IMG/VR virus record: IMGVR_UViG_3300023179_000626
Coordinates: 1-20,190 of that record
Source of the DNA: a virus
Reading direction: 5' to 3' (one strand)
Length of the DNA stretch: 20,190 bases
Below the pieces are notes generated by a model. It was not told the DNA's origin. It saw only the letters and a program-made list of their open reading frames with translations, and searched no databases. A program made the position numbers and the translations under genes. The first letter of the stretch is position 1. Each line of letters begins with the position of its first letter. Positions 1 to 17,825 of the stretch are shown here, piece by piece.

Positions 1-3000
1 GGTGTCAATAGAGTAAATATATCTTTATCTGCACTGGCACTTTCAGGTGTTAGAACAGTAAAAGATACCTTTTCTTCCTCGGCTGTAGGAGGAGTCATTA
101 CTGTTATTGTATCATACTCATTCCCTACTTGTTTATAATAGTCTAAAGTAGTTTGATATTCCCCAAGTAGCGGATCAGAGATTATAGGAACAAAATAATT
201 CAAATCCTGTTCTAGAGGGTCTCCAAAAAGGTAATTTATATAACCTAGTTCATATATAGCCTTTTCAGAGAATAAGTAAATTTGACCACCTGGTCTTTCT
301 TGTGGGATAAGTTCTTTTGTTAAATTAGACTGCGGTCCTTCTAGTTCTATAGGAGAAGGGTCCGATTTAAACGATGTCACTTGTTTATCAAACTCAAAGC
401 CACTCTTTTTACCAAAAATTGTAAATGGAAAATCTAGAAAAGGATCAGGTGGTTTAACTTTGGTTGGTATAAACGTCATAAAATTAAAATAATTTTTTGA
501 TGTAAAAAAGTTTACCGGAAAGTTTTTAGCATAATTACCCATTTTCTGTTTAAGCGTGGTAACTTGTGGTAAAACTTTATCATCGTTTTCTATGTTCACC
601 ATAATTGGATTTACGGTGATTCTAGGGCCATAAGTTAGCATTTTAGTAAATGATCCAAATTTTAAAACTTCTGTATCTGTGTCCTTAGTAAAAAAACTCG
701 GGCCTATGCCATGTTTATATCCAAGCGGGTTGCCATACAAATTAGGAGAACTAAAAACGCCAAAAATTGGTTGAGGTGTAGTGATGTAATTAAATTCAAT
801 ATTTGGTTTGTACGCCACTGTATTAATAACAATATTTGTTTCTTTTGGTAATAGTGTTTGTAATAAAGTAATAGCATTGTCTTGTTTAGCTGGCGGTAAA
901 TCGAAAGTTGGCAAAGCCTCAACTAATTCAGTAGATTTATCCATCTGAGGACCAAATGGAATCTTGATTTCTGTTTCATGTGGGAAAATATCGGTAGCCA
1001 ACACAGCTTCTAAAACAGCCGGCAGTGTAAATGGACCTACAATAGTTACAGTGGGCGGGTTTATATAGCCGCTTCCGCCGCTTGTCAAATTGATACTTAC
1101 AACAGTACCAGTGCCTATTAAATCTAAAACTATAATACCTTCTGCAGGTAGTCCCGGAGGAGGAGGGGGATCAATTACAAGTAACATATTATTTCTATCA
1201 TAACCAAGTCCGGCAAAAATTATGTTAATATTTGCCACACTTCGTCCTGTATTAGCTATACCATTAACAAGAATTGGTCCTACTATAGTTTTATTTTGAA
1301 TAGACCAACTTCCGACCTCTGTGTATACTTCACTATTATCTAATGGATCTAATGTAATCTGATAAATTTTAGAATTATTTGCATTATATGACCACAGATC
1401 CCATTCTAGACCAAGTAAAGTATTTGTAGGTATAGTATCATAAAATGTTCCTAACCTAGTGGTTTTTCCTAAACTATGAGTTATAAACGTTACATTAATC
1501 TGATCGCTGAATAAAGTAATTGGTGTTCCTGATGGCAAAGTAGGAGATGTAACATTAAGATACGAGTTAGTCTCATAATACGGGATAGACATAAAACTGT
1601 TACCATCGAAAGTTTCGTTAAAAGGTAAACCAATACCTAGCAAAAGTTGTGGGATGTTGGGACCACTCCCAGAAGGTAAAAATTGAACTTTAGTTAAAGG
1701 TGGACCTAATCCTGGATTAAGAACTATGTTAGCCGATCTATTAAGTTGGGTGAATGGTGACTGTAAAAGTCCATAATTTAAATAATTTATAATTGCTGGT
1801 GCACCAACTGTTTGAATTTGTAATTTTATAAACTCATTTGATCCAACTATTAAAGTTTCTATTATATTATATTGTCTATATCCGGTGAAGATATTATTTA
1901 CTTTCAACATGTCCCCAGCAGCTGGAGTAAAATAAGAACCCCTAGGAATATCATAATATTTGATTAAGCCAGTGTTATCCCATAAAGAAAATTGTATTTC
2001 GCTACCGCCTCCAGTGGAATCAGAAAAATAATCTGGGACAAAGTAATTACCAGTCACCAAAATAATGTAACTAATATTTTGATTAGTAATTGTAGGTTGA
2101 ATTCCCAACGGTACTATTGTATCGGTAATACTATTAATTTGTGATTCAGGAGTTATAGGTATTGCAAATTGATTTTTGCCTAAACCTAAAATTACAGCCG
2201 ATCTAATTAGATTTGTTTTGAATGGAACAATAAGAGTAAGTACATCACCTTCGTTTATCTTTTTAGAACCGTCGTAAAATCCATCATTTAATCGCAAAAT
2301 ACCATAATCTACGCTGGCTCTAACATCAATCAAGGTAGAAATTTTTTGATCTATGTAAATGTCATATTTGACTGTGGTTTCATCTACGCTTCTTTCTTTA
2401 AAAATTCTTGGTCTTCTTGCTACAAAACCACCAGATGGTAAATAATTAAATTTTCCTAGACCAAGATTATATAGTATACCATCGCTGTAATTACCACCAA
2501 ACAGGTATGACACCTGTGGTAGTGGCGGTGTCCCTGCTATTTGATAGTTATAGGTATTACTTGCATTTCGTAGACCAATTGTTAATGAACTGTCATGAAA
2601 AGTACTCGTAGGATAATTAAATTCTATGTATTGATAACCGCGGCCTCTCCAAAAACCAACATCAAACTCGATCATGCTAGGAACAAAATAGGTTTTAAAC
2701 AATATAGGAGTTGAAGCTGGAAGAACCTGTGATGTTGAAAATTCTAAAAAATTACCTTTTATATCAATAATGGTTGGTACAGTAATTGGAGTTGTTATAG
2801 GAGAAAGTAGCTCAAAGACATAATTTTTATAGCGAACTAAAGTAATCGAATAAACATCTACAGTTATGGTATCAAAAGGATCGGTTATAGGTGGTGCCGG
2901 TGGTGGTGGTTGTGGTAATGCATATACTATAGGATTATATACAGTTTGTTTTTGGACAGATGGTGGTAACGCCAAAAACGTAAACACCGAAGTATCACCG

Positions 3001-6000
3001 ATAATAATGTCAGTTACACTTGAATTATAATTTGAGGAGAAACCTATAAGGTAAAGAATTGTTGTAGCAAGATCAGAGCTTACTCCAGTATTCGATAATG
3101 TATTGCCAATCAATAACTTAGTAGCTGTAGTATGTCCTAATCTTAAATTAACACCTATACCTGTTAAGTTTGTTACCTTAACGTTCCAACTTTCTAATTT
3201 CTCTGTAGCAAACGGTATAGTATCTGCCACGACAGGAATTTTTATTCTAATATGATTACCATATATAGTTAAATTTACGGTTGGTCCATTAGCTATGGTA
3301 ATTGGAGCAATAACAGTTGTTGGCCATTCAACTGTCCAGAATGGTCCAAAATCTGCGGCTATGCTTACCGCCGGGAAATATGGTCCAGATGTAATATCAA
3401 ATTTATAAGCGTTACCGTCTGGAATATTAGTAGTAATAAAATCAATTACAATTGTAGTTGGAGGAAATACTGATGGCACACCCTCCCATGCCATTTGGGG
3501 GGTAACTGTTAATCTAAAAGTTATAGGTTGTGTGGTTTTACTTATAATTACGTCGGTTCCACCAAATAATGCACTCTTTAATGTTTGTCCAATCACTAAC
3601 TTATTATAAACAGTTGAATCTATTTCGATAAATTTATCGGATCTTGCTGAGGTTGGATTAAATGATACCGAAGAATGTTGAATATTGACTGCTGTAACAA
3701 TGTCATTAACTACAGTTGAGGTTGTTGTACCAACAACAGTTAAGAAATCATTTAATAAACCACGCTCGTATGTAGTACTGACTGTACTTGTTGTATATTC
3801 AAAAATAAATTCGTTTTTGTTTATAATGGCTAAATCAACTAGCCCCTCTTCTGTTACTTTGTTGCCGGATATCTCTAAAACAACATTACCGAGATAATAA
3901 TTATCATAGTTAACAGCAGCAGTCCAACCATACACAGAAGTCAAACCTGATGGTACAACTTGGGCATATTTGTAAAATGATGCTGCCGGAGTTGTGACAT
4001 AGACTCTATTTCCTGAACTATAGTATGCATTTTTTGTAACAAGATAAGGTATTATGCTTAATACTTCATTACTAGGAGAACCTACTACAGGTCCTGTAGA
4101 AACAATTACAGCATATGGTGGAGTACCGGCTATGGGATTGCTAGCATAATCCCTTACAAGAACACCGGAAAAATCCTGCATGTTTATATAAACACCAGTC
4201 TGAGCAATGCTTTCTGTAGACCTAACTAAACCGTTTGGATTTGGCGTTGGAATCGTTCCGACCGCTTTCCAATGATAATAATTAAATTCTCCTATTATAC
4301 CTTGTTTATAGAATACCCCAGGAATTATTCCCAAAAAGGTCGGAGCCCACGTAACTGCTGCAACTATACGATTATCAATGTGATAATCTATGTACATCTG
4401 CCTTGGTTCAATTAACAAAGCATTAGTTGTCATTGCTGCGAAGTTAGGCAATGTTATACCTAATGGAAAGGTTGTATCAAAACCTAAAACTCCATGATTG
4501 CCGCTAAACAAAAATTCAGTAAAGCTATTGCCGAAATAATTTATGTCAAACGGCAATGTATAAGTACCCGCAGCAAATACCGGAGGAACATACACAGTGC
4601 CCGGCGTAAAGGTTGCTACAAGGGTGTTGTAGGCACCAGCTGTAAAATGATCCAAATATGACGAATCTGTTATAGATTTTGTGTCGTAGTCAAGGGCATG
4701 TTCCCCTAATATTATAAAACTTCTATGTAATCCTGCCGAAGGAGCTCGGTAAACAACTCCTAAATAAGAATCATCAACTAGATTGGCCATAAGTTCGCCA
4801 TTAACCCACCATTTAATATATGGTCCGGCTATGGGTGTTAATGATGGTTCACCAATTAATCTAAATATTTTTGGTGTGGTTCCTATTGCATTAACTGGCC
4901 CTTCTCTATAATCTAAACTATAAGGGATTACCTTTTTTATACCAGAGCCAAGTAGATCTAATGTAGTTCTATTATCTAAAAAATGGTGAGCTAAAATTGA
5001 CATCCCTATTTTACTGGCTAGGGTTACTTTTTTTGTAAAATAATAATTTTTTATTTTAATAGCCGCCGAAGTCTCTGTTATACCTAATTGATAACTATCT
5101 AGTACATTTATTTCAATAACACAATTAGTATCGTGACCTGTAATTAGAATTGATTTACCAAATCTTTTAACATATGCTGGTACGAAATCTCCTAAATATA
5201 TATAGGTAATATCGGATGAAAGAATTCCGTTAATTATGATCAATCTTTTATTATGGCAATCAGGAATAGCAGTTCTACCGGCCTGACTATACTCCATATT
5301 ATCAGGTTGGCCTAAGACAAAGGGCCCCCCCGGAGGTGTTAGGTCGGTTATAGCTCCATTATTCTGTACATAATAAATTCTATGATTGGTAGTTGTAATT
5401 ATTACCCCAGATGTATCATGATAAGTCACTGAGGCTACCCTTAATCCACCTAAAGTAATAGTACTAAAGACTAAACCTGTGTCTAAATTTACACGTGCCA
5501 AAGAGGTAGATCCAGCAAGATATGCTTCCGACGTACCTATTTTAAGTGAACAAGAATTTACAACAGGAAATAAGCTAGTAACAAGTTTTGCTCTTGCTGC
5601 GTCAGAAAAACTACCTAAAAAGGGAATGTCTTCATTTATAGGTAAATTAGCATTTATAAATGCTAAACTTAGCGTAGCTGGTGTAAATGCATTGCTAACT
5701 ATGACCGATAAATCAGGTTTTATTCTGTATATTTTTCCGTCTGCACATAATACACCTAAATCGACGAATGTTTGACCGTTGTTGATATAGTTAAACTTAA
5801 AATATGAAATAGGAAAATCGGAAAGTTTTTTTGTAAAATTTAAACCTCCTTGGCCAGTGTACAAATTTACTTTGTAATTTTGAACATCTAAGATGATATG
5901 ATAGTCATTAAATTTTACAGTTGCGTTTTCTACCGCGATAGATCCGTGACCTAACCCTGAGGGACTCACATATAGAACAGTGTTACTATGAGCATCAAGT

Positions 6001-7079
6001 AAAGACACACTAGAATAGTAGTTTACATAATTAAAAAATCTTTTTAGTCTATCGGGACCTTTTACCACTGGACTATAATTATTTTTAGTGACTACAGCAA
6101 AATAATTTTTTTGATTTTTTAAACTATATTCATAGTAATTATAGCTTAAAAAGGTAGCGGGAGCCACAACCGAACAAGTTACATGATCTTTTTCTTTTAA
6201 TTTTACCTGTGCATTTACTGGAAATTGAGTACCGTTAGGTGTAACGTAAATTGTAGCCTGTACTTGATTTGTTTTCCTGTTTCTAATTTGCAAAGTAGAA
6301 GGCGTAGTAGCTGATGGTTTAAATGTGACGAAACCTCTCATGCCACCATAATTTTCCATTTCTGCCAAATGCCCTGCAGGCCATGATCCATAATAATAAG
6401 TTACAAATCCATTATTTACGAATTCTGTGCCCGGTGTCAGTTTGACACCACCGATTGAATATCTTACATTATTATGATGTAGTCCATCCCGTGCTGCATA
6501 AGCACCTACGTAAGGTATAAAATAAAGTGTACAGTTGTTAACAGGAACAGTAAAATTAACAGTGGCGTAATTAAAAATAGTGTTCAAAGTGACACTATAG
6601 TCAGGACCTAGGTATAAAAGACTTTTTACAGATGATCCAAAAGGTTGTCTCCAAATTGACCTAGACACTGCAAAGGGAAGATTTATAAGTGATGTTGGTG
6701 TTATTATAGTTTGAGTATTGATGGGTACACCTCCCTGCCAAATCACTACTTGTTTTTCTAAGGGATACCCATAATATCTAACACCATTTGTATACTCAAC
6801 TCCACTTGTGTTGGTGATAACAAAAGCTTCGTCTATTAACGTGTTTATTACAAATTGGTATGTTCGACCAATTAAAAAATAAAATTCTGGATTTACGTAT
6901 GGTACAAGTAAGGCAGCGTCTGTATAAAAATTATATACAGACGCTGTATGATTTACATAAAAAACATTGGCACTAACAACTTTTACAGGTTGATTAATTA
7001 CAAGAGTTTGTGATTCCTCTGAAGTAAAACTTGTAGTGACTACTGCTGATGGTATACATGATGATAGGCTAGAAAACAT
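1..7079 (-). CDS. Giant virion/tail-fibre-like structural protein, partial (C-terminus beyond left edge)
   Basis: A single reading frame runs from ATG at 7079 to the left edge. I read it line by line and found no stop, giving at least 2,359 residues. The start is fixed by an in-frame TAG four codons upstream. No overall family is recognised. Visible parts: residues 60-257 have cupredoxin-like traits (GRTYQFVIN, then NFTVPVNN). Residues about 440-680 look like beta-propeller blades (LGVLCADGKIYRI, AYLAGSTSLARVNLDTG). Residues about 836-940 carry a YTLPFDINYFGN...FSGNHGVLGF pattern like nidogen-type beta domains. A proline-rich linker (ALPQPPPPAPP) lies near 1387, another (DPPPPPGLP) near 1970, and a GGSGYINPPTVTI module near 2000. 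No signal peptide or membrane segment was seen. Its place after other virion genes, beta-rich composition and size suggest a tail-fibre, adsorption or surface protein. It is clearly a gene; the role is inferred. Confidence 0.93.
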   Translation of the reverse strand, partial: MFSSLSSCIPSAVVTTSFTSEESQTLVINQPVKVVSANVFYVNHTASVYNFYTDAALLVPYVNPEFYFLIGRTYQFVINTLIDEAFVITNTSGVEYTNGVRYYGYPLEKQVVIWQGGVPINTQTIITPTSLINLPFAVSRSIWRQPFGSSVKSLLYLGPDYSVTLNTIFNYATVNFTVPVNNCTLYFIPYVGAYAARDGLHHNNVRYSIGGVKLTPGTEFVNNGFVTYYYGSWPAGHLAEMENYGGMRGFVTFKPSATTPSTLQIRNRKTNQVQATIYVTPNGTQFPVNAQVKLKEKDHVTCSVVAPATFLSYNYYEYSLKNQKNYFAVVTKNNYSPVVKGPDRLKRFFNYVNYYSSVSLLDAHSNTVLYVSPSGLGHGSIAVENATVKFNDYHIILDVQNYKVNLYTGQGGLNFTKKLSDFPISYFKFNYINNGQTFVDLGVLCADGKIYRIKPDLSVIVSNAFTPATLSLAFINANLPINEDIPFLGSFSDAARAKLVTSLFPVVNSCSLKIGTSEAYLAGSTSLARVNLDTGLVFSTITLGGLRVASVTYHDTSGVIITTTNHRIYYVQNNGAITDLTPPGGPFVLGQPDNMEYSQAGRTAIPDCHNKRLIIINGILSSDITYIYLGDFVPAYVKRFGKSILITGHDTNCVIEINVLDSYQLGITETSAAIKIKNYYFTKKVTLASKIGMSILAHHFLDNRTTLDLLGSGIKKVIPYSLDYREGPVNAIGTTPKIFRLIGEPSLTPIAGPYIKWWVNGELMANLVDDSYLGVVYRAPSAGLHRSFIILGEHALDYDTKSITDSSYLDHFTAGAYNTLVATFTPGTVYVPPVFAAGTYTLPFDINYFGNSFTEFLFSGNHGVLGFDTTFPLGITLPNFAAMTTNALLIEPRQMYIDYHIDNRIVAAVTWAPTFLGIIPGVFYKQGIIGEFNYYHWKAVGTIPTPNPNGLVRSTESIAQTGVYINMQDFSGVLVRDYASNPIAGTPPYAVIVSTGPVVGSPSNEVLSIIPYLVTKNAYYSSGNRVYVTTPAASFYKYAQVVPSGLTSVYGWTAAVNYDNYYLGNVVLEISGNKVTEEGLVDLAIINKNEFIFEYTTSTVSTTYERGLLNDFLTVVGTTTSTVVNDIVTAVNIQHSSVSFNPTSARSDKFIEIDSTVYNKLVIGQTLKSALFGGTDVIISKTTQPITFRLTVTPQMAWEGVPSVFPPTTIVIDFITTNIPDGNAYKFDITSGPYFPAVSIAADFGPFWTVEWPTTVIAPITIANGPTVNLTIYGNHIRIKIPVVADTIPFATEKLESWNVKVTNLTGIGVNLRLGHTTATKLLIGNTLSNTGVSSDLATTILYLIGFSSNYNSSVTDIIIGDTSVFTFLALPPSVQKQTVYNPIVYALPQPPPPAPPITDPFDTITVDVYSITLVRYKNYVFELLSPITTPITVPTIIDIKGNFLEFSTSQVLPASTPILFKTYFVPSMIEFDVGFWRGRGYQYIEFNYPTSTFHDSSLTIGLRNASNTYNYQIAGTPPLPQVSYLFGGNYSDGILYNLGLGKFNYLPSGGFVARRPRIFKERSVDETTVKYDIYIDQKISTLIDVRASVDYGILRLNDGFYDGSKKINEGDVLTLIVPFKTNLIRSAVILGLGKNQFAIPITPESQINSITDTIVPLGIQPTITNQNISYIILVTGNYFVPDYFSDSTGGGSEIQFSLWDNTGLIKYYDIPRGSYFTPAAGDMLKVNNIFTGYRQYNIIETLIVGSNEFIKLQIQTVGAPAIINYLNYGLLQSPFTQLNRSANIVLNPGLGPPLTKVQFLPSGSGPNIPQLLLGIGLPFNETFDGNSFMSIPYYETNSYLNVTSPTLPSGTPITLFSDQINVTFITHSLGKTTRLGTFYDTIPTNTLLGLEWDLWSYNANNSKIYQITLDPLDNSEVYTEVGSWSIQNKTIVGPILVNGIANTGRSVANINIIFAGLGYDRNNMLLVIDPPPPPGLPAEGIIVLDLIGTGTVVSINLTSGGSGYINPPTVTIVGPFTLPAVLEAVLATDIFPHETEIKIPFGPQMDKSTELVEALPTFDLPPAKQDNAITLLQTLLPKETNIVINTVAYKPNIEFNYITTPQPIFGVFSSPNLYGNPLGYKHGIGPSFFTKDTDTEVLKFGSFTKMLTYGPRITVNPIMVNIENDDKVLPQVTTLKQKMGNYAKNFPVNFFTSKNYFNFMTFIPTKVKPPDPFLDFPFTIFGKKSGFEFDKQVTSFKSDPSPIELEGPQSNLTKELIPQERPGGQIYLFSEKAIYELGYINYLFGDPLEQDLNYFVPIISDPLLGEYQTTLDYYKQVGNEYDTITVMTPPTAEEEKVSFTVLTPESASADKDIFTLLT
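6433..6449. repeat. 7-bp hairpin GGTGTCA/TGACACC inside the giant gene
   Basis: GGTGTCA at 6433-6439 and TGACACC at 6443-6449 form a perfect 7-bp stem with a 3-base loop. It codes for part of a GGVKLTP stretch. It is short enough to be chance. Confidence 0.5.
6914..6946. repeat. 13-bp perfect inverted repeat inside the giant gene
   Basis: CAGCGTCTGTATA at 6914-6926 is the exact reverse complement of 6934-6946, separated by 7 bases (6927-6933, AT-only). It falls at codons about 45-56 of the giant gene, roughly 135-165 bases after the start codon. The transcript could form a stable hairpin. No T-tract follows on the minus strand, so it is not a normal terminator. Confidence 0.85.
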
Positions 7080-7104
7080 CTTTTGATACTATACAGTATC
7101 CTCA
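7080..7104 (-). promoter_or_regulatory. Ribosome binding site with hairpin between Shine-Dalgarno and ATG
   Basis: The minus strand reads TGAGGA at 7104-7099, then a stem (GATACT 7100-7095, loop GTAT, AGTATC 7090-7085), then AAAAG and ATG at 7079. The Shine-Dalgarno GAGG sits 20 bases before the ATG, too far for normal use, but folding the 6-bp stem would leave about 5 bases. T4 gene 38 is a known case of a hairpin correcting a long spacing. Function here is inferred. Confidence 0.5.
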
Positions 7105-14984: not shown

Positions 14985-15428
14985 TTATAGATCGACGTTA
15001 CCTGATACAATGGTAGCATTACCTCTAATGGCTGTTGCTGCCATACCCTGAGATTCCTCGAGTTGTATGAAACCGTCAGTTAAACTTGAGGCAAACGACC
15101 ATGGGCCAGAACCTATAGTAGTACCGCTGGTGTTGACTAGCACACAAGTACGACCTTCTATTTTACTAACGTATCCAACTGTTGTACTATCAAGTCTAGC
15201 TCTGATGGTCATGTCCCCAACTGCTAAACTTCCATTAACTTTAGCTGCTAACGTGCAAATACTTGTTACAGCAGCATTACCGGCCGATACAAGAAATTTC
15301 TTACTGCCTTTTTGTTTTAGAATATATCCATCATATTCAATTCCGTTACCAGTTGCACGGAATCTTACACGAATATCACCTTCTGTAGTTGATGAACCAA
15401 AAAATCTTTTATTAATAGGACGTCCCAT
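14985..15428 (-). CDS. Small virion-type protein, 147 aa, MGRPINKRFFG family
   Basis: The N-terminus MGRPINKRFFG followed by YILKQKGSKKFLVS matches a recurrent pattern in small structural proteins of T4-like marine phages (MGRP.NK..FG ... Y...QKG...F.V). The rest is a likely beta-fold with no catalytic motif. AAGGAG lies about 8 bases before the ATG. A terminator follows, and a late-promoter-like GATAAATA lies about 70 bases upstream, so it may be a single-gene unit. It stands divergent to the lipoprotein gene. Likely a minor capsid or tail decoration protein; function is not recognised from sequence alone. Confidence 0.88.
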   Translation of the reverse strand: MGRPINKRFFGSSTTEGDIRVRFRATGNGIEYDGYILKQKGSKKFLVSAGNAAVTSICTLAAKVNGSLAVGDMTIRARLDSTTVGYVSKIEGRTCVLVNTSGTTIGSGPWSFASSLTDGFIQLEESQGMAATAIRGNATIVSGNVDL

Positions 15429-15536: not shown

Positions 15537-15548
15537 AGAGGTGACAAT
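15537..15548 (+). promoter_or_regulatory. Strong Shine-Dalgarno deciding the lipoprotein start
   Basis: AGAGGTGA at 15537-15544 is well spaced before ATG 15549. The longer in-frame start at 15513 has no such site and would put 12 residues before a good signal peptide. Confidence 0.8.
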
Positions 15549-16574
15549 ATGCGTTCGATAATTGCTATATCTATAGCTGCCTTGCTTGTAGCTGGTTGCG
15601 CTAACACAGATTATAAAATGTATTCGGAGACACAGCAGAAGATCGCTCAAGCATACGCTGTAGCTGAAACTGCTAGATATAATGCTCTGGCCGAAATTGC
15701 CAAAAATGGCGACAGTGGGGCCAAGGTGGCTGCTGTATTAAGCATACAAATGGGCGGCGGTGGGGGTAATAATCAAAGACAACAATTACAGGTCGCACCG
15801 CCCACGAACTGGGGAGACACTGCTCTAAAATGGACCAGTGTCTTATTGCCCAGTTTTACACAATTATATGGTATTACAGCAAATAAAGACATTGCTATAG
15901 CCCAAAGCAATAACCAAGCTGCCATAGCTCAAAGTACTAATCAAACCTTTGCATCCATGAGTTCTAACATGGGCACAAGCAATACCAATATAGCCCAATC
16001 AGGATTTAATGCCGCTACTTCTGCAGCCAATTCTTTGGCAACTGTAGCCACCGCAGGTATTACCGGGGTCAACAATGCTGCTGCTGCTGGATTTACCGCA
16101 ACTACAAATATAGGCACAGCAGGGTTTAATGCCTTGGGAACACAAAGCACCGCAGCGTTAAACGCACTACAGGCTACAAATATTGCCGGATTTAATGCAT
16201 TAAAAGATACGGCAGGTGCAGGGCTTACAGCATCAACTACTTTAGGAACTGCTGGTATCACTGGTGTTAATAATGCCGCTACAGCTGGTTTAACTGCTGC
16301 AACTACTTTAGGAACTGCTGGTATCACTGGTGTTAATAATGCCGCTACAGCTGGTTTAACTGCCGCAACTACTTTAAATGCTAGCAATAATGCAACTATC
16401 CAAGCGTTAGGTGCTCAAGCTATTACTAACATTACAACTTTAACTAATGCTAACAAAGATGTTGTTAAGACTCTAGCAGATAAATTAACAGGCACAACCA
16501 CTAATACAACTAATACTACTACCACAACAACTACTACAACCACAAGTTCTGTTAACACTGGTGGCGGTAATTAA
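15549..16574 (+). CDS. Phage lipoprotein with hendecad repeats, moron-like, 341 aa
   Basis: The only gene on the plus strand. Residues 1-17 form a type II signal peptide (MRSIIAISIAALLVAGC); Cys17 would be lipidated, and the following Ala favours outer-membrane sorting. Residues about 22-65 are a helical stretch (MYSETQQKIAQAYAVAETAR...) followed by a glycine run. A hydrophobic patch (WTSVLLPSFTQLYGI) lies near 98-112. Residues 170-279 are ten contiguous 11-residue units (G-[FIL]-[TN]-A/G..., ending TA or AA), with degenerate units on both sides. The end is Thr-rich. I do not recognise an exact family; short phage lipoproteins with a similar YSEAQ...IAEIAKNGDSAAKVAAV start exist in other phages (from memory, weak). 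It has its own late promoter and terminator, so expression is late. Could act at the envelope during lysis or superinfection exclusion; neither is shown. Confidence 0.9.
   Translation: MRSIIAISIAALLVAGCANTDYKMYSETQQKIAQAYAVAETARYNALAEIAKNGDSGAKVAAVLSIQMGGGGGNNQRQQLQVAPPTNWGDTALKWTSVLLPSFTQLYGITANKDIAIAQSNNQAAIAQSTNQTFASMSSNMGTSNTNIAQSGFNAATSAANSLATVATAGITGVNNAAAAGFTATTNIGTAGFNALGTQSTAALNALQATNIAGFNALKDTAGAGLTASTTLGTAGITGVNNAATAGLTAATTLGTAGITGVNNAATAGLTAATTLNASNNATIQALGAQAITNITTLTNANKDVVKTLADKLTGTTTNTTNTTTTTTTTTTSSVNTGGGN
16056..16385 (+). repeat. Ten tandem 33-base (11-residue) units in the lipoprotein
   Basis: From codon 170 the protein reads in units of 11: GITGVNNAAAA, GFTATTNIGTA, GFNALGTQSTA, ALNALQATNIA, GFNALKDTAGA, GLTASTTLGTA, GITGVNNAATA, GLTAATTLGTA, GITGVNNAATA, GLTAATTLNAS. 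The DNA period is 33 bases. Eleven-residue periodicity is typical of hendecad coiled coils or amphipathic helices. Confidence 0.85.
16241..16372 (+). repeat. Recent 66-bp tandem duplication in the lipoprotein gene
   Basis: 16241-16306 and 16307-16372 are identical except for one base (GCT versus GCC alanine codon). Each copy is two 11-residue units. The near-identity, compared with the diverged neighbours, marks a recent duplication. Confidence 0.95.
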
Positions 16575-16646: not shown

Positions 16647-17825
16647 TTAACTAAAAGTTAAGTTTGATACTGCGATACGCTCTAGATAGTCAGCTGCGTT
16701 ACCGAGTGAGCTGGCTGTGTTTGTCAACTCAACATATCCGTAACGTGTCATAAAGCCAACTACTGGCTCAAATGTTGCTGGATCTAGAATAACGCCCGAG
16801 CTCATTAGAGGAACATATGGGCAATAAAACGCAGCAGCATCGGCTTCGCTTGTACCTTTGTATCCAATTAGAACATCGGTACCGGTATTAGCATAACTGT
16901 CAACGTAGATCTTCATAGCACTGTTTAATGTACCAACAAATTTAGTGTTGGTTGGTGCTTCGAATGTACCTTCTGTTGTACGAGCAAATGCACTGGTCGT
17001 TGCACTTTGTAGTACAGTTAGAACTTCTGGACTTACAACCGCCCAGTTAGCTGCACCACGACGTGTACGCTGTGCAATCAAGTTTGCAGCACGATTGATA
17101 GTAACTGCAAGAGCAGCGTGCTCGTCACCAACAAATGTAGCTGTACCGCTTACAGCAGCTTGATTAAATGCTGGTAGGTTTGAAGGAGCTAGGCTACGTA
17201 GGCTCGCTAGGATCTCTTGGTCGATTTCAACTGTGATTTCCTGTGCTAGAGCAGCCATAATTTCTGCTTCTACATCAATACCATGCATTGCTTGTGCATC
17301 TTGTGCAGCCTCAAATGTCCAACGTGCGCTTAGTTTACGAGTCTTAGCTTCGACAACTTGCTTCAAGATTTGAACATTGATTTTGTTACCTGGCACACCT
17401 TCAAGAGCAGATGTTGAATCTGCACGGCTGGTTGATGCATTACCAGAGTAAGCGGTTGCAATACGGAATGGGCTTAGTGCCTCATCACCAGCTGTTGCAC
17501 CATCTGTCGCGGTTGTTGCACTAACAGTGTCAGCGTAACGAACACGTAGAGTATGGATTTGAGCAACTGGACCAGTCATTGGCTGAACACCAACGATTTC
17601 GTTTGCAATAACAGTTGGCATAACACGACGAATGATCGGTAGAATTACACGATTCAACGTTGCGATTTGACCAGCTGCTGTTGAGCCAGCTGTAACAGCT
17701 TCCATCAAGCTCTTGCGGGTATTTTCAAGCATAATACCCATGTTGTTGCGGCGTGAGCCTTGCAAGCCTTCTAACAGGGCTTCTTTAGTTTCGCCCCAAC
17801 GGCTTTCTAATAGTTCTTGTGTCAT
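16647..17825 (-). CDS. gp23: Major capsid protein, T4 gp23-like
   Basis: Forms the hexameric shell of the head. Conserved blocks match T4 gp23 in order: LPIIRRVMPTVIANEIVGVQ (about 57-76), the QVVEAKTRKL...FEAAQDAQAMHGID helix region, and PYVPLM...DPATFEPVVGFMTRYG near the end. At 392 aa it is much shorter than T4 gp23 (521 aa); most of the loss is between the GVQPM block and QVVEAK, where T4 carries its insertion domain. T4 gp23 is cut by gp21 after L-x-E before A/G; LME|A (Glu42) and LLE|G (Glu19) are candidates here, and Glu42 lies at the position expected from T4. AAAGGA precedes the ATG. It follows gp22 by 27 bases and is probably co-transcribed with gp21 and gp22. No late promoter octamer was seen just upstream. 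Confidence 0.97.
   Translation of the reverse strand: MTQELLESRWGETKEALLEGLQGSRRNNMGIMLENTRKSLMEAVTAGSTAAGQIATLNRVILPIIRRVMPTVIANEIVGVQPMTGPVAQIHTLRVRYADTVSATTATDGATAGDEALSPFRIATAYSGNASTSRADSTSALEGVPGNKINVQILKQVVEAKTRKLSARWTFEAAQDAQAMHGIDVEAEIMAALAQEITVEIDQEILASLRSLAPSNLPAFNQAAVSGTATFVGDEHAALAVTINRAANLIAQRTRRGAANWAVVSPEVLTVLQSATTSAFARTTEGTFEAPTNTKFVGTLNSAMKIYVDSYANTGTDVLIGYKGTSEADAAAFYCPYVPLMSSGVILDPATFEPVVGFMTRYGYVELTNTASSLGNAADYLERIAVSNLTFS

Follow-up and report, generated by a model that had tools for sequence, protein, structure and literature searches.

The window analysed here is an entire IMG/VR record of 20,190 bases. On its minus strand it carries, in order, genes for a gp21-type protease, a gp22-type scaffold protein, gp23, P147, P233, P107, P401, P275, P931, P614 and a very long protein, hereafter called the giant, in whose gene the record stops. 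The gp23-type major capsid protein (16647-17825, minus strand) was identified by PF07068 (E 1e-97) and by PHROG. P401 (12661-13866, minus strand) has a conserved stretch of 140 residues at its start that is followed by beta modules, as indicated by profile searches and homologues. The three partner genes of the giant, also on the minus strand, are P275 (11832-12659), whose N-terminus resembles the start of the long fibre-like ORFs of related phages and whose middle resembles Lu11 gp245, and P931 (8963-11758) and P614 (7105-8949), which share the C-terminal domain phrog_12249 according to PHROG profiles and homologues. Between gp23 and P147, on the opposite strand (15546-16574, plus strand), lies a lipoprotein-like gene with Asn/Ala/Thr-rich repeats; a relative occupies the same position in contigs L114, L115, L116, L119 (87% identity) and L122, described below. 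The isolates with the most similar capsid proteins (63-67% identity) are jumbo phages including Vibrio phage 2.275.O, PA5oct, Phosso and the GAP32/121Q group. By annotation, the cassette formed by P275, the two phrog_12249 genes and the giant is absent behind gp23 in PA5oct, Vibrio phage 2.275.O and GAP32.

The giant gene (3-7079, minus strand) opens with an ATG at 7079, immediately downstream of an in-frame stop at 7091, and continues through 2,359 codons with zero internal stops to window base 3, where the record edge ends it. As the window is the complete record, nothing is left to read beyond that base. The other five frames across the same 7,077 bases contain 135-235 stops apiece with a longest open run of at most 116 codons, and the homologue on contig L115 aligns to giant residues 1-2040 (31% identity) in a single frame with no frameshift; on these two grounds a chance frame was rejected. 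The codon-position GC along the frame, ~0.43/0.40/0.21, is steady in 200-codon bins, indicating one coding frame and not a sequencing-error fusion. Stop counts, GC and the L115 alignment therefore confirm the original prediction that a non-random frame of at least 2,359 codons runs off the left edge. That prediction had also named a sequencing error as a possible source of the frame; the frame is instead intact and its homologue collinear over residues 1-2040. The record does terminate within the giant gene, as might be expected had an assembly or sequencing error fused unrelated frames, but homologues on 16 contigs, one of them aligned across residues 1-2040, refute such an artefact for those residues and leave it a negligible probability. 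The giant frame is a genuine gene, cut by the end of the record. A 33-bp imperfect palindrome, with a 91% match to its own reverse complement, is present within its coding sequence at 6914-6946.

Both AlphaFold models of the giant are nearly all beta, with approximately half of each at pLDDT <50. The start, MFSSLSSC (residues 1-30; 6990-7079), is conserved in alignments of 7 and 14 members and was modelled at pLDDT 74-87. The first beta domain is split by an insert of ~250 residues (31-278; 6246-6989) that the alignments reveal only in the window giant and L115; it was modelled at pLDDT ~30, and a cupredoxin-like label given earlier to part of the protein was not borne out. Residues 362-703 (4971-5996) are predicted to form a 7-bladed beta-propeller, with pLDDT mostly 65-89 and VIA-align Z scores of 22-23 (in the best matches, rmsd ~3.1-3.6 over ~263-289 aligned residues). 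A conserved beta domain is predicted by AlphaFold at residues 715-805 (4665-4937). Further on is a beta-sandwich module (residues ~1181-1310; 3150-3539), drawn from alignment, AlphaFold and fold matches and Calx-beta-like by eye, which recurs in P401 homologues and in other cassette proteins of relatives. The sequence then reads into Pro-rich linker 1 (residues 1389-1396; 2892-2915) and a second conserved beta-rich half (residues 1420-1935; 1275-2822), the latter delimited by alignments and AlphaFold. ORF comparisons define a GSGY module (residues 1930-2031; 987-1292), common to the window giant and ORFs of related phages, in which Pro-rich linker 2 occupies residues 1971-1976 and the GGSGY motif starts at residue 2001. 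The visible chain finishes in a variable tail (residues 2040-2359; 3-962) that is predicted to be disordered, at residues 2080-2359 in the AlphaFold model, and its last residues resemble, in a repeat scan, the onset of a degenerate 15-residue repeat.

The propeller-like and GGSGY segments and the two Pro-rich linkers listed in the original prediction could all be located in this way. Its beta-sandwich-like segments hold up as predicted modules, but the fold matches listed for them score low (Z 5.6-7.3). No Pfam or PHROG tail-fibre model matches the window giant, in agreement with the earlier remark that the protein is unlike a classical T4 fibre. Pfam and profile searches of the visible window protein also revealed no carbohydrate-binding domain of known type. 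A tail tape-measure protein was considered and rejected, since a long, mainly alpha-helical chain would be expected and the models are almost wholly beta. These data support the description of the giant as a mosaic, beta-rich protein within a T4-like structural gene cluster.

Searched alone, the giant gave no match in Pfam, PHROGs, tblastn against cultured phages or IMG/VR peptide patterns. When 40 capsid-related contigs were searched with it, only GGSGY-module matches were returned, and the long ORFs at the giant's position in these contigs have no detectable similarity to it. The family was found via the partner gene: an alignment of the phrog_12249 domain led to 36 IMG/VR loci, and in nine of these (L114-L122) a long ORF lies directly behind the phrog_12249 pair. 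BLAST links eight of the nine ORFs to the giant; for the remaining one, in L121, the link is a profile match. A search with the family alignment added five contigs (L168, L172-L175) and one with the C-terminal block added L182 and L183, whose giants are equal in length and ending, bringing the total to 16 contigs with giant homologues, all behind the same gene pair. The complete members span 1,179-3,685 aa; the giants of L115 and L118 are cut off by contig ends. In L117 the gene is split at 15426 into ORFs of 1,136 and 926 aa whose stop and start overlap, which looks like a natural fission of the gene.

The order P233-P107-P401-P275-P931-P614-giant is kept in L114-L119, L122, L168 and L172-L175, with gp23 ahead where the contig reaches. 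The window's gp23 is 84-88% identical to that of its five closest contigs and the giant only 25-31%, a drop that fits what is expected of a host-facing protein. The members share a common plan, composed of an MF-x-S start (MF-x-S-x-S, or almost so), a 7-bladed propeller, beta-sandwich modules, a hypervariable stalk and a fixed C-terminal block. The stalk is often repetitive, and tandem repeats with units of at least 42 bp are present in eight relatives, mostly in the stalk that corresponds to residues 2080-2359. Lectin domains are inserted in some members; the 2,899-aa giant of L173 (9920-18619) contains three Laminin_G_3 lectin domains (E 1.3e-38). In L168, L172 and L173 the gene after the giant encodes GDSL esterase, Laminin_G_3 and ILEI domains, and in G041 collagen-like and subtilase genes are found farther downstream. 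In L160 (1016-15006) the region downstream of the giant encodes a collagen-like protein of 2,198 aa, then another collagen-like protein, a subtilase and a protein rich in glycine. An apparent rhamnose-lectin-like motif close to the C-terminal end of the giants in G049 and G046 was dropped, having no Pfam support. Searches of PDB sequences with the family profiles gave nothing convincing.

The constant C-terminal block comprises ~75 residues (...GTDYWNYRIYFN...PVTW[LY]IRGG) and, in G049 and G046, is broken up by an insertion. GG closes the protein in each of the 13 distinct complete relatives; in 12 the ending is W[LY]IxGG. Among 801 ORFs in the loci examined, 32 distinct ORFs of at least 300 aa end in GG and 28 of these are members or counterparts of the giant, a count that is descriptive only because the counterparts were partly chosen by that ending. 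The visible part of the window protein, cut at the record end, does not contain the GG block. Its full length is predicted to be ~2,430-4,120 aa (median estimate 2,670) with the same GG block at its end; the estimate derives from 12 complete members, and the lower bound of ~2,430 is the visible part plus the missing block. An early stop beyond the edge with unrelated domains, the other outcome that had been set against the long frame, is not what the relatives display: every complete one has this block, which the window protein has still to reach.

Counterparts are found in seven cultured jumbo phages: PaBG (990 aa), NCTB (1,330 aa), pEa_SNUABM_5 (1,315 aa), JA11 (1,320 aa), Y3 (1,394 aa), Lu11 (1,433 aa) and HRDY3 (1,374 aa). 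In the first five the gene directly follows a phrog_12249 gene, in Lu11 and HRDY3 it is just ahead of the P275-like gene, and in all seven the final GG is preceded by a hydrophobic residue and then one of any kind. Two features that define the family, a beta-propeller in the first half and linkage to a P275-like gene and one or more phrog_12249 proteins, are found in the window giant, the propeller in the window model. The family profile matches PaBG gp224 (E 4e-6), Lu11 gp244 (E 5e-6) and the HRDY3 protein (E 1e-4), and hhalign supports the profile-linked isolates with probabilities of 80 and 91%. In a viral structure library, three of the best six matches of the N-terminal model are named as PaBG, JA11 and pEa_SNUABM_5 proteins, and another agrees with NCTB only in its length of 1,330 aa. 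One of the top structural matches to the window model is a 925-aa PaBG entry, presumably gp224 (E 1.7e-13). Profile searches detected no sequence homology to NCTB and the Erwinia/Dickeya (phrog_29316) branch save a weak C-terminal match, and when the N-terminal half was compared profile to profile with the PaBG and NCTB/Erwinia branches, no match emerged. Homology to the isolate proteins is supported for most of the seven phages by a profile or predicted-fold match, while the kinship of the NCTB and Erwinia/Dickeya branch is suggested by fold, gene place and ending. In the stretches read of more remote phrog_12249 loci (L135, L137, L139, L142-L149) and of Atu_ph07 there was no GG-ended giant.

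The domain shared by P931 and P614 is labelled "tail sheath" and is also present in Lu11, HRDY3, PaBG, NCTB, Erwinia and Dickeya jumbo phages. JA11 and PaBG have sheath genes separate from their phrog_12249 genes, and the PaBG phrog_12249 protein is entered as "Unknown" among virion proteins (PMC7412058). The label may be an annotation carry-over, and possibly misleading. Comparison of the domain with PDB sequences gave nothing convincing.

The virion proteins of PaBG identified by mass spectrometry include gp261 (34,778 Da) and gp263 (18,908 Da), both of unknown function (Table 1 in PMC7412058). The gene ahead of PaBG gp224, which is gp262 in that numbering by calculated offset, encodes a protein with a computed mass of 35,165 Da, or ~34,778 Da if the start is the fifth residue, Met, and the gene behind it one of 18,908 Da. 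These masses fit gp261 and gp263, so both neighbours of gp224 match virion proteins. The Atu_ph07 phrog_12249 genes fall within CDS 284-329, a range said to hold many virion proteins detected by mass spectrometry (PMC6102473). We consider it very probable that the giant itself is present in the virion. PaBG gp224 (107.9 kDa) is absent from the 14 listed virion bands (PMC7412058), as it would be if the giant acted in infection or assembly outside the particle; yet the match of both flanking products to virion proteins, the beta-mosaic build and the structural genes all around make such a non-virion role very unlikely.

We favour the reading, with a probability of roughly 0.6, that the giant is a modular adhesin borne by the particles of a jumbo myovirus whose head is of T4 type, and binding of the host surface is its probable role. 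The conserved N-terminal half, with its MF-x-S start, 7-bladed propeller and beta-sandwich modules, would provide a rigid base. Next would come a stalk of variable length, often built of short tandem repeats, into which lectin-type or other beta domains are inserted in some relatives, and the constant ~75-residue block, usually with W[LY]IxGG at its end, would cap the chain. Together with P275, P931, P614 and the downstream collagen-like and lectin/esterase proteins, the giant probably forms one appendage that touches host glycans. The lectin inserts of L173, the downstream esterase, lectin and collagen-like genes and the drop in identity favour this host-facing adhesin, though short of proof. 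Counting against it, the PaBG counterpart is not in the listed bands, propellers serve many functions, both ends of the giant are conserved, about half of each AlphaFold model lies below pLDDT 50, and the visible window protein showed no known carbohydrate-binding domain.

That both ends of the giant are conserved sets it apart from a plain fibre, in which the base is constant and the tip varies. With a variable middle between them, the two ends could be anchors and the stalk a spacer in a structural part of the tail or baseplate, such as a connector or a tail or neck decoration, which would carry other appendages without binding the host itself. The tail sheath label of the partner genes' domain, and the position of the PaBG, JA11 and Y3 cassettes near true sheath and tail genes, would agree with such a part; the very fast divergence compared to the head genes and the lectin insertions in L173 point outward to the host, and we regard it as rather unlikely. 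Less probable still is that the cassette, with its GG-ended giant, builds hair-like whiskers in one hairy jumbo myovirus lineage, the giant being the variable host-facing hair protein. Lu11, Y3, JA11 and AD1 are described as hairy; the first three have the cassette and AD1 has phrog_12249 genes, and published work on CBB did not identify the genes for its hairs (PMC5259590). PaBG, however, has the cassette and reportedly bears only small appendages at the tail end, and CBB is hairy but has no phrog_12249 match.

The adhesin reading aside, the giant belongs to a widespread, unnamed family of giant jumbo-phage proteins with common gene neighbours and a common ending. The cassette and the C-terminal signature link a metagenomic orphan to uncharacterised proteins of PaBG, Lu11, HRDY3, NCTB, Y3 and JA11, and thus one laboratory phage could test function for all. 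The family also supplies specific candidates for the appendage genes left unassigned in published work; should the cassette indeed build hairs, it would be their genetic basis in one hairy jumbo myovirus lineage.

Among cultured phages, PaBG gp224 (RefSeq O152_gp224) is, like the giant, encoded directly behind a phrog_12249 gene, and it ends in GYVGGG; by contrast, it is less than half as long, is without the MF-x-S start and shows no sequence match to the N-terminal half of the giant. The phrog_29316 proteins (pEa_SNUABM_5 gp157 and Dickeya phage JA11 gp140) and NCTB BN7874_240 adjoin phrog_12249 genes, match the window model structurally (NCTB by length only) and end in RGYLSGG, RGYLAGG and SGYIRGG, but at ~1,315-1,330 aa they display only a weak C-terminal sequence match, and a PHROG search of the window protein gave no match to phrog_29316. 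Lu11 gp244 and the HRDY3 protein share the partner genes, are homologous by profile over the second half and end in ISGL[MI]QGG; they differ in lying ahead of the phrog_12249 pair and in a distinct, glycine-rich first half. The long tail fibre proteins gp34-gp37 of T4 resemble the giant as very long appendage proteins of T4-type phages. Unlike these, the giant matches no tail-fibre model and instead combines a predicted propeller and beta sandwiches with conservation at both ends.
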